Under the pieces are notes generated by a model that worked only from the letters and a program-made list of their open reading frames with translations, did not search any database and was not told the origin of the DNA. The translations under genes were made by a program, and so were the position numbers. A stretch of DNA of 64,000 nucleotides from Candidatus Saccharimonadota bacterium (GTDB taxonomy: Bacteria > Patescibacteriota > Saccharimonadia > Saccharimonadales > Saccharimonadaceae). The stretch is taken from assembly GCA_017406405.1 (NCBI GenBank), contig JAFQYO010000003.1:1-64000 (forward strand), written 5' to 3'. Positions 13,196 through 50,328 of the stretch are shown piece after piece; position 1 is the stretch's first letter, and every line of letters begins with the position of its first letter.

Positions 13196-14221
13196 ATGCA
13201 ACTCCCCCGAATTTCCGTTATTGTTCCTGTCTATAATACAAAAGACTATCTTTTTGATTGCCTTAGTTCTCTCAAAAACCAAACCTATAAAAACCTAGAA
13301 ATTCTTCTTATCGACGACGGTTCGACTGACGACTCTCTTAAAATCATCCAAAAATATCAAAAACTTGATTCTCGTGCAAGAGTCCTAAAAAAGAAAAATG
13401 GCGGTCTCTCTAGCGCGAGGAACCTCGGCCTCGACCATGCGAACGGTGAATATATTTTCTTTCTCGACTCTGACGATTATCTAGAAAACGACGCGATTGA
13501 ATATCTTTATTTCTTAATTAAGAAGACAAACTCTCCCCTTTCGATTTGCTCTCACTACGAAAGAAAGGGGAACGATAAACTTAAAGACTTCAACAACGGA
13601 GGGGGTTATAAGTCCCAGAAACTCACCGTAGAAACCGCTCTCGACCGAATGTTAAACGAACAGGGTTTTACGATGTCGGCTTGGGGAAAACTATATAAAA
13701 CTGATCTTTTCAAAAAACACAAAAGCCTTGAAAAAATTCGTTTCCCCGAGAGTAAACTTCACGAAGATGTCGGGACGACCTATAAACTCCTCTTACGCGT
13801 TAACGAGTTGAATAAAAATTCAAGAATCGTCTTCGGAGAAAAACCTAAATACATCTATAACATCCGAAAAACCTCTATCACTAATCAAGGTTTTAATAAT
13901 AAAAAACTAGAACTCATTACCCAAACCGACGAAATGTGCGACGCGATTGATAAATCTTTCCCAAACTTAAGAAATGCCACAAATCTCCGCCGACTTCACG
14001 CGCGCTTCTCAATCCTTCGTCAAATTATTCAGAAAACGCATAAAACAGAGAACGATAAAAAACTTGAAGATTCCCTAGTTTATTATATAAAAAGTCATAA
14101 ATCTTGGATTTCTGAAAATCCTGAAAGCACAAAGAGAGACAAACTTGCGCTTGCCTCTCTCATGGCGGGCCGAACCGCCTTCCGAATTGCATGGAGTCTT
14201 TATTCTAAGTTTTTCAAATAA
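13196..14221 (+). CDS. Family 2 glycosyltransferase
   Basis: 341 residues starting MQLPRISVIVPVYNTKDYL. Classic GT2 motifs follow: LLIDDGSTDDSL, GGLSSARNLGLD and FLDSDDYL (DxD metal site, about 95), then EDVGT of the acceptor side. The start was moved to 13196 because the five codons upstream contain the -10 box. It converges with galE and the two genes overlap by 22 nt at their ends. Confidence 0.88.
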   Translation: MQLPRISVIVPVYNTKDYLFDCLSSLKNQTYKNLEILLIDDGSTDDSLKIIQKYQKLDSRARVLKKKNGGLSSARNLGLDHANGEYIFFLDSDDYLENDAIEYLYFLIKKTNSPLSICSHYERKGNDKLKDFNNGGGYKSQKLTVETALDRMLNEQGFTMSAWGKLYKTDLFKKHKSLEKIRFPESKLHEDVGTTYKLLLRVNELNKNSRIVFGEKPKYIYNIRKTSITNQGFNNKKLELITQTDEMCDAIDKSFPNLRNATNLRRLHARFSILRQIIQKTHKTENDKKLEDSLVYYIKSHKSWISENPESTKRDKLALASLMAGRTAFRIAWSLYSKFFK

Positions 14222-47454: not shown

Positions 47455-47952
47455 ATGTTCTGGGACGATGAGATTTCTGAAACCGAAAAAAAGCAACAAC
47501 TCCTCGATGACGAGCTCAAAAAACTTCTCGATTCTTTAATGCGCGATTATCTCGAAGAAACAAAAAAGCATCTCCTTTCTCTCGAAAAAGAACTAAAATC
47601 CGCAAAAAAATTTGACGCCTTCGGCAACGAAATCACTCCCGAAGGAAAAGATGAGGAAGTTTGGGAATACTTTGCCGAAAAAAATCTTTGGGAAAATATT
47701 TTTAACAAAAAATATAGAACAAAACAAGCTCATTATCTCGATACGCTCGAGTCCTTCCTCTCCGAAACTATCGACAATCCTGAACGTCATATTGAACTTT
47801 TTGGACGCGGTCTTCTCTGGCGTTACTACGCAAAAACAAACTCCTCCGGCCACGGCTCTTTCGCCTACCTTAAAACCGACGACCCTCTTGTTCCTCTCTC
47901 GAAAACCGTTAAAACCTTCTATAACCATCTAAAAAAGACCAGCCATGATTAA
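47455..47952 (+). CDS. Hypothetical soluble helical protein
   Basis: 165 residues, charged and mainly helical, with a coiled-coil-like first third and a later FGRGLLWRYYAKTNSSGHGSF patch. No signal peptide or membrane helix. The family is not recognised. It overlaps the channel gene by 8 nt. Confidence 0.65.
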   Translation: MFWDDEISETEKKQQLLDDELKKLLDSLMRDYLEETKKHLLSLEKELKSAKKFDAFGNEITPEGKDEEVWEYFAEKNLWENIFNKKYRTKQAHYLDTLESFLSETIDNPERHIELFGRGLLWRYYAKTNSSGHGSFAYLKTDDPLVPLSKTVKTFYNHLKKTSHD

Positions 47953-48547
47953 AGACCTGATAAAAAAATCTATTGCCGCTTCATTCCTGATTGCGCTTGG
48001 CGACTATGCCTTACTAAAGCTCGGAACGCCCCTCGGTCCAATCATCTTTGCGTTCGGGCTGCTCGGTGTCTGTTATCTCGGACTTAATCTTTTCACCGGA
48101 AAATGTGGCTTCCTTTTCGAAGAACGCCTTGACCCGCTTGACCTGACGATTATCCTTCTCGTCAATTTGCTCGCCGGCTTCTTCATTGGCCTTATCTTCT
48201 CCTTCATCGATCCCGAACTAGTCGCCGCCGCAAGCTCAAAAGTCGCTTCCTGGAATTTCTCATTCTCCTTCTTCGGAAAAGCCTTTCTCTGCGGAACAAT
48301 CATGTACCTTGCCGTAAAAATGTACAAACTTAAAACTCCTCTCGGAATACTTTTCGGAATCCCTCTCTTTATTTTTTGCGGTTTTCAACACTGCATCGCT
48401 AATGTCATTACTCTTGGTATCTCACGCGGGTTTGATTGGAGTTTACTGCTTGCGATTCTTGGGAACTTCCTCGGCTCCCTTTTCCTTTCTTGGTTCTCCG
48501 CTAAACAAAAAATTCCTCGCCGTTTCAGCGAGGAAAGTAAGCAATAA
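47945..48547 (+). CDS. Short formate/nitrite transporter (FNT)-like channel
   Basis: 200 residues with about six membrane helices. LNLFTGKCGFLF matches the FNT E/NLFTGN re-entrant motif and FCGFQHCIANVITLG matches the GxxHCVANM signature, including the conserved His. FNT proteins are usually 260-290 residues, so this one has shortened loops. It may release formate, lactate or another fermentation acid, fitting the acetate kinase in the same window. Confidence 0.82.
   Translation: MIKDLIKKSIAASFLIALGDYALLKLGTPLGPIIFAFGLLGVCYLGLNLFTGKCGFLFEERLDPLDLTIILLVNLLAGFFIGLIFSFIDPELVAAASSKVASWNFSFSFFGKAFLCGTIMYLAVKMYKLKTPLGILFGIPLFIFCGFQHCIANVITLGISRGFDWSLLLAILGNFLGSLFLSWFSAKQKIPRRFSEESKQ
48507..48535 (-). 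terminator. Terminator of the 34-residue protein gene
   Basis: On the minus strand CCTCGC/GCGAGG (with extra pairing) is followed by AATTTTTTG. It lies inside the end of the convergent channel gene and has no T run on the plus strand. Confidence 0.78.
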
Positions 48548-48552
48548 AACCT

Positions 48553-48657
48553 CTAGCGACCGTCTTTATGGCGGAGATGTTTACGTTTGTCGCTGTGTTT
48601 ATGATTGTTGTTGCGATTTAGCTTCGCAATCACTTTTTTAGCGTTTCTTTTACTCAT
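48553..48657 (-). CDS. 34-residue highly basic small protein
   Basis: It encodes MSKRNAKKVIAKLNRN and continues with NNHKHSDKRKHLRHKDGR, rich in Lys, Arg, His and Asn and without hydrophobic core. It has its own -10 box exactly 6 nt before the ATG and its own terminator, which argues that it is a real gene despite its size. Such composition suits an RNA- or ribosome-binding peptide. I know no matching family. Confidence 0.75.
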   Translation of the reverse strand: MSKRNAKKVIAKLNRNNNHKHSDKRKHLRHKDGR

Positions 48658-48663
48658 TTCTAC

Positions 48664-48669
48664 ATTATA
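48664..48669 (-). promoter_or_regulatory. Extended -10 box, leaderless, for the 34-residue protein gene
   Basis: Minus-strand TGT-TATAAT ends 6 nt before the ATG at 48657. Confidence 0.75.
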
Positions 48670-48707
48670 ACATAGTTTTTCATTTTGCAAAAGTCTAGTA
48701 TATTTGG

Positions 48708-48713
48708 TATAAT
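48708..48713 (+). promoter_or_regulatory. Extended -10 box, leaderless, for the PilB-like gene
   Basis: TGG-TATAAT ends 7 nt before the ATG at 48721. Confidence 0.75.
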
Positions 48714-48720
48714 CATAAAC

Positions 48721-50328
48721 ATGAACGAGGAAGAGCTCCAACAAAAACGTCGAGACAACGAAGAAACCGCGACCGCTAATCGTGCCCATATCCTAGGCTT
48801 GCCCTACCTCGACACCCGCGATTTTGAAGCGACTATTCCTTTGACGCTCGGTGTTCTTGATAAACAAGAAATGCATAAAAACTTCATCATCCCTCTTCAA
48901 AAAGGCGGCGACGGCGACCATTACCAATTCATGATTACCTCCCAAACTCCGCGTCACCTCCTCTCCGAAATGCGCGAAAATTACGAAAAAGATGGCGAAC
49001 GGGTCGATTTCTTTTTGATTTCCGGCTCGGCCTTTCGCGTTTTTATGCTTCGCTATGATCCTCCGCGCGAAATAAAATACGACGACATTAAAATCGCCGC
49101 TGAAGGCGACTCCGAAACCATCGCCGAGGTTTCTGAAACTCTAAACGCTGTTTCCTCCGAAAAAGTCTTCGATTTTCTCCTTGACCAAGCCGACAAACTC
49201 GGGGCTTCTGATATCCATATCGAAAACCTTCGCCAAGAAATTCGGATTCGTATGCGAATCGACGGAATTCTTCACCCCGTCGCGAACCTCAATAAAGACC
49301 GTTACCGTGTTTTGATGGGCGAACTCTCTTCTCGCGCTAATGTCTCCGCCGCCTCAAACAAGCCTCAGTCCGGCCACATTCAGACCGAAATCCGCCGTTC
49401 TAGCTCGACTCATATCTTAAACGTCCGCGTCGAAACCGTCCCTACTATGTATGGCCAAGACGCCGTCTTGCGTCTCTTTAATTTCGACGAATCTCTCCTG
49501 AAGCTCGACTTACTAGGCCTCTCCGAAGCTGAGCGCCGAGAAATAGACGAAGTAATCACTCGCCCTCGAGGTCTCGTTCTTATGGTCGGCCCGACCGGCT
49601 CCGGGAAATCTACGACTCTCTACTCCATGCTAAACGCTTTAAACACGACCGACCGAAAAATCATCACCCTCGAAGACCCGATTGAATACGGCATTTCCGG
49701 TATTTCCCAAATCCCCATCTCCACAAACAAAGGTGGTTCTTTCGCTGACGGCCTCCGTTCTGTTCTTCGTCTTGACCCAGATGTAGTCATGGTCGGCGAG
49801 ATTCGCGACTCCGACACCGCCAAGACCGCCATCCAAGCTTCAATTACGGGTCATCTTGTCCTCTCCTCATTTCATGCCGATTCGACTTGCGCCGCTTTCT
49901 CGCGCATGATTGATTTGATTGGCCAAAACCCGATTTTCTCCACCTCTATCCGCCTCGTCGTCGCCCAGCGTCTCGTCCGTCGTTTGACCGACGCAAAAGA
50001 GCCCTACGTTCCTGACGAAGCAACAAAAGATTACATTAAAAAGGTGTTGGACGGCATCGAGGGCTTTAACCCCTCCGAAATAACCTTATTTAAGCCCGTC
50101 CCGACCCCAGAAGCTCCTTTCGGCTATGAAGGCCGAACTGTGATTATGGAACAGCTTGTTGTGTCCGACGATATCTCCGCCTTCTTAAAAGGCGACGTAT
50201 CTGATGTCGATACGAAACAAATTGAAACCGTCGCTAAGAAAAACGGCATGCTAACCCTAGAACAAAAGGGCCTTCTTATGGCCCTTCAAGGAATCACATC
50301 TCTTGAAGAAGTCTCCCGAGTTATCTAG
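48721..50328 (+). CDS. PilB/GspE-type secretion or pilus motor ATPase
   Basis: 535 residues. Walker A GPTGSGKSTTLYSML, the Asp box LEDPIEYGISGISQ, Walker B LRLDPDVVMVGEIRD and the His box TGHLVLSSFHADS are intact. An N-terminal domain of about 150 residues precedes the core. After QRLVRRLT the tetracysteine zinc motif of many GspE/PilB proteins is missing. It should power assembly of pili built from the prepilins at 29-32 kb. The start at 48721 is preferred to an ATG twelve codons earlier, which lies before the -10 box. Confidence 0.93.
   Translation: MNEEELQQKRRDNEETATANRAHILGLPYLDTRDFEATIPLTLGVLDKQEMHKNFIIPLQKGGDGDHYQFMITSQTPRHLLSEMRENYEKDGERVDFFLISGSAFRVFMLRYDPPREIKYDDIKIAAEGDSETIAEVSETLNAVSSEKVFDFLLDQADKLGASDIHIENLRQEIRIRMRIDGILHPVANLNKDRYRVLMGELSSRANVSAASNKPQSGHIQTEIRRSSSTHILNVRVETVPTMYGQDAVLRLFNFDESLLKLDLLGLSEAERREIDEVITRPRGLVLMVGPTGSGKSTTLYSMLNALNTTDRKIITLEDPIEYGISGISQIPISTNKGGSFADGLRSVLRLDPDVVMVGEIRDSDTAKTAIQASITGHLVLSSFHADSTCAAFSRMIDLIGQNPIFSTSIRLVVAQRLVRRLTDAKEPYVPDEATKDYIKKVLDGIEGFNPSEITLFKPVPTPEAPFGYEGRTVIMEQLVVSDDISAFLKGDVSDVDTKQIETVAKKNGMLTLEQKGLLMALQGITSLEEVSRVI

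Follow-up and report, generated by a model that had tools for sequence, protein, structure and literature searches.

A lineage-restricted gene for a 34-residue basic protein in gut Saccharibacteria and its possible link to the ribosome

Small basic ribosomal proteins that are specific to one lineage are known in bacteria, bTHX and bS22 among them. Where a -10 element ends 6 to 7 nt ahead of an ATG, transcription is predicted to begin at that ATG. The msL1/msL2 protein of microsporidia is inferred to have started out as a small unfolded protein with positive charge that rRNA captured (PMC10764239). Reports on bacteria of the radiation considered here stress the loss of ribosomal proteins (PMC12641178), and in mycobacteria leaderless transcripts are reported to occur together with small proteins (PMC4633059). 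Here we describe a gene for a small basic protein from a 64-kb stretch of a Saccharibacteria contig (the window). The family to which it belongs is undescribed in the libraries and literature that we searched: Pfam and NCBIfam (at curated cut-offs) and the PDB gave no match to the protein, nor did any ribosomal family in Pfam, and literature searches returned no paper with the core motif and none on a ribosome structure or on leaderless transcription from Saccharibacteria. Coordinates at the locus are collected in Table 1.

Table 1. Features of the small-gene locus (positions in the window)
Feature	Position	Strand	Evidence or remark
Formate/nitrite-transporter-like membrane protein, 200 aa, convergent	47945-48547	plus	Form_Nir_trans PF01226, E 8.5e-13
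Intrinsic terminator of small gene	48535-48507	minus	Hairpin and TTTTTT
CDS of 34-aa basic protein with TAG	48657-48553	minus	Translation, same-genus homologues, pN/pS 0.083
Start (ATG) and stop (TAG) of small gene	48657-48655; 48555-48553	minus	
Extended -10 box ATGTTATAAT	48664-48673	minus	6 nt (GTAGAA) from small-gene ATG
Palindrome TTTTGCAAAA	48683-48692		Site where the -35 hexamers of small gene and divergent ATPase gene overlap each other
-35-like hexamer TTTGCA	48686-48691	minus	16 nt upstream of small-gene -10
PilB/GspE-type ATPase, divergent	48721-50328	plus	Pfam T2SSE PF00437, E 6e-91

The minus-strand frame encodes MSKRNAKKVIAKLNRNNNHKHSDKRKHLRHKDGR; a 34-residue basic product had been predicted at 48657-48553, and translation shows this to be accurate. 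A longer frame of 78 aa runs in phase from ATG 48789, and was discarded as the gene because conservation is limited to the part from 48657. Searches with tblastn found relatives in 27 of the 35 other genomes of the window's genus, and the comparison across Saccharibacteria showed the frame, its start, its distance from the promoter, and its terminator kept together; the absence of conservation that had been named as grounds for dropping the gene was not what we found. The core RNNNHKHSxKR hardly varies among the 118 distinct coding sequences compared: its R, N, N, H, K, H, S, K, and R are fixed, and their third codon positions vary freely. Entropy is 0.965 bit at third codon positions versus 0.106 at first and 0.054 at second positions. 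Across 52 close pairs, pN is 0.038 and pS 0.455, which gives a pN/pS of 0.083. Peptide length ranges from 26 to 38 aa in the family, with changes of whole codons at both ends. The third-position substitution pattern rules out a chance frame, as do the relatives in the genus, the pN/pS ratio, and the terminator counts given below. We conclude that the 34-aa frame is a real protein gene under strong purifying selection, and there is good support for the original prediction of a small gene, easy to overlook, that has a promoter and a terminator of its own.

Upstream of the gene, TGTTATAAT ends at 48664 on the minus strand and is separated from the ATG by GTAGAA, which agrees with the predicted TGT-TATAAT exactly 6 nt ahead of the start; the promoter scan scored 10/12, with the TG extension. 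Downstream, the hairpin TTCCTCGCTGAAACGGCGAGGAA (48535-48513, minus strand, 10 pairs, followed by TTTTTT) begins 18 positions beyond the last stop base, i.e., with 17 nt between, so that the predicted spacing of 18 nt holds when counted as positions. The terminator sits within the final codons of the gene convergent with it. The further claim that such signals lie on the minus strand only was right for the elements of the small gene and wrong for the plus strand, which has its own TATAAT at 48708-48713. This box stands 7 nt ahead of the ATG of the ATPase gene, which is thus also of the leaderless type. Motifs resembling the palindrome are visible upstream of some relatives of the small gene.

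With its -10 box 6 nt from the ATG and no Shine-Dalgarno sequence, the small gene has the layout of a leaderless gene (-10 about 6 to 7 nt ahead of the start), and its transcript is predicted to begin at or near 48657. A -10 box 4 to 9 nt ahead of the ATG, without a Shine-Dalgarno sequence, is found at 86 of 121 family loci, the distance being exactly 6 nt at 66 of the 121; a Shine-Dalgarno sequence takes the place of the close -10 box at 24. Terminators lie within 45 nt of the stop at 99 of the 121 loci, compared with 6.5 in shuffled sequences. In the window, 19 frames of 80 aa or longer have the same layout (one gene being counted twice), versus 0.3 after shuffling, and about 18 other genes there share it; examples with an extended -10 (TGnTATAAT) 6 to 8 nt from the ATG lie at 13196, 21318, 34255, 48721, 50448, 52959, 58317, and 3874. 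The position of the promoter is therefore not special to the small gene, since it reflects the ordinary leaderless layout of this organism. In a comparison that drew on bL31 loci L191 to L220 and on loci of g1 and g32, leaderless-type starts were about eight times denser at the bL31 loci of the window's genus, at 2.4 per 10 kb, than at loci, mostly those of bL31, taken from the order's other families, at 0.3 per 10 kb; the sample was small and unmatched for GC.

When 392 genomes of the class were searched with a profile, strong matches came solely from g1, g32, and g42, three genera that belong to one family; a search of 249 genomes of that family returned the same three and one marginal match, in g38, that has no start codon. 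Weak matches outside the three genera have no start codon or no core and look like chance. A scan for RNNNHKHS in some 85,000 species genomes yielded 170 confirmed loci; of the best 80, 79 carry Saccharibacteria titles, mostly from ruminant gut, and one is titled "uncultured bacterium." Some near-complete genomes of the window's genus lack the gene. Genomes of the genus without it retain the ATPase gene, several having directly upstream of it a gene that we take, from our own reading of its C-terminal sequence, to encode CTP synthase, and no basic frame replacing the small gene was found at these ATPase loci. Mapped onto the ATPase tree, presence and absence require 3 changes, versus about 11 with shuffled labels, and an assembly gap might account for one of the three. 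Absence from about three lineages means that the gene is not essential. No relatives of the peptide were found in viral contigs or plasmids, and phage or plasmid cargo was rejected on that account. The gene is passed down vertically, with a few losses (or gains), and is not a mobile element. Two copies occur within one assembly in G137 (contigs C6 and C9) and in G337 (C5 and C17), which could represent duplications or mixed bins.

In the window's genus the commonest neighbour, at 44 of 112 distinct loci, is the PilB/GspE-type ATPase gene, which the small gene diverges from or precedes; divergence from a PilB-like ATPase gene had been predicted for the window and was borne out by the PF00437 match. 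Other neighbours there, CTP synthase and many more, are varied and unrelated to translation, and adjacency to rpmE is absent. At 13 distinct loci, 12 of them in the sister genus g32 and the other being L058, the small gene lies directly downstream of rpmE, which encodes bL31; the upstream protein matches Pfam Ribosomal_L31 at 4.6e-22. The gap is 2 to 24 nt, a GGAGG site is usual, and a terminator mostly follows. The linkage hardly extends beyond one genus and may have arisen in a single evolutionary event. In the order's other families, no divergent homologue was found downstream of bL31 where bL31 was located; the gene that usually follows there is one that we read from its sequence as prfA.

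The family has a mean net charge of +10.5, with MAKK or MARK starts, many His residues, few aromatics, and no Trp. An AlphaFold prediction with 42 sequences (mean pLDDT 67) places a single helix at the N terminus and leaves the remainder extended; with confidence this low, the model is not fit for searching by fold. The peptide is predicted to be intrinsically disordered and lacks a hydrophobic core, and invariant basic, Asn, and His residues in such a chain would be the look of a peptide that folds on RNA. Because in some relatives the gene sits in one operon with that of a ribosomal protein, we consider a ribosome or RNA role probable. Charge, predicted disorder, and the missing hydrophobic core, taken with the bL31 operon, lead us to favour an accessory protein, specific to this lineage, that belongs to the ribosome or helps in its assembly and likely binds rRNA. 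A leaderless monocistronic mRNA, made from the gene's own promoter and ended at its own terminator, would be translated into a highly basic, disordered peptide of 26 to 38 aa, whose core most likely folds on RNA; the peptide would then most likely bind rRNA and take its place on the ribosome.

We give this reading about an even chance of being right, because the bL31 operon is the sole independent functional evidence and perhaps records one event in one genus. The original prediction had proposed RNA or ribosome binding from composition alone; the operon adds independent support to the proposal, in which binding itself is putative. Counting against a ribosomal protein, library searches showed no similarity to known ribosomal proteins. 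The protein is also not present throughout the lineage, a pattern that rules out only a universal ribosomal protein, since accessory ones can be lost. Codon usage is weakly like that of ribosomal protein genes (p ~0.05) and is not decisive.

The main rival is an RNA-binding protein that works off the ribosome, as an RNA chaperone or as a regulator or cofactor of an RNase or of a tRNA or mRNA process. A basic, disordered peptide with an Asn- and His-rich core would suit RNA generally, the gene is mostly its own transcription unit among changing neighbours, and some lineages dispense with it; the bL31 operon of g32, however, indicates the ribosome over other RNA, and we regard this alternative as unlikely. 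Small size and high positive charge would also fit a DNA-binding protein of the nucleoid type, which we consider improbable given the operon with bL31 and the failure of any DNA-binding family to exceed its curated cut-off (HTH_70 reached only E 0.4 to 0.7). The small gene and the leaderless layout co-occur in g1 and g32, and the order's other families have fewer leaderless-type starts, as might be expected of a translation factor for the organism's common leaderless mRNAs. Such a role is quite improbable, however, because leaderless starts persist in species that lack the gene: those of the window's genus retain the leaderless layout of the ATPase gene, and gene-less genera of the family also show leaderless-type starts in a small sample. 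His-rich histatins are the model for another alternative, an antimicrobial or host-directed cationic peptide, which would accord with the Lys/Arg/His-rich composition and with the predicted life of Saccharibacteria carriers as epibionts of other bacteria. We think it very improbable; no signal peptide is visible in the sequence, the core is invariant across three genera where a weapon would be expected to change fast, and the gene can share an operon with a ribosomal protein. A structured small RNA with an incidental open frame, for which the unit of about 150 nt bounded by promoter and terminator might speak, is already largely refuted by the third-position substitutions and low pN/pS, by the retention of frame, start, and stop with length shifts in whole codons, and by the lack of an Rfam match at the locus.

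Genes for bL36, bL28, bL31, and bL33 are all present in the genome, plus a weakly scoring bS21, and none is replaced by the small protein, so that a stand-in for a lost small ribosomal protein was rejected. A duplicate of bL36 or bL28 was likewise rejected: both are already encoded in the genome, and nothing emerged when profiles were compared with bL36. The bL36 of the genome (L180, G000:C8:38098-38211) has lost its zinc-binding Cys/His residues. Its bS21 (G000:C14:18650-18781) and those of same-genus genomes score about 20 to 32 bits, versus up to 43 in most other families of the order, which suggests divergence in the window's genus.

The protein family lies outside curated libraries and occurs in well over 100 species. 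Tentatively, and at somewhat less than an even chance, we propose that it is a hitherto unrecognized ribosomal protein, which one family of gut Saccharibacteria has gained when the reduced ribosome of these bacteria captured a disordered basic peptide; it would have been born or fixed recently enough to lack counterparts in the other lineages searched. A basic protein that is conserved, lineage restricted, and tied to bL31 would, if the proposal is true, be a case of ribosomal protein gain, of interest because the radiation is known mainly for losses. Restriction to three genera makes it testable how ribosomes acquire new proteins.

Of the known systems, bL36 (PF00444) is similar in size and also basic, and some copies of the small protein have a K-V-R stretch near the N terminus; a separate bL36 is encoded elsewhere in the genome, however, and profile comparison shows no relation. 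Leaderless small-protein genes of mycobacteria share the combination of leaderless transcript, predicted here from sequence, and small protein, whereas the protein family here is a different one and lineage restricted. In kind, the protein appears to resemble other lineage-specific small basic ribosomal proteins: like bTHX, bS22, and msL1/msL2, it is short and strongly basic, has little fold of its own, and occurs in one lineage only, although no sequence similarity to them was found and its place on the ribosome is putative.
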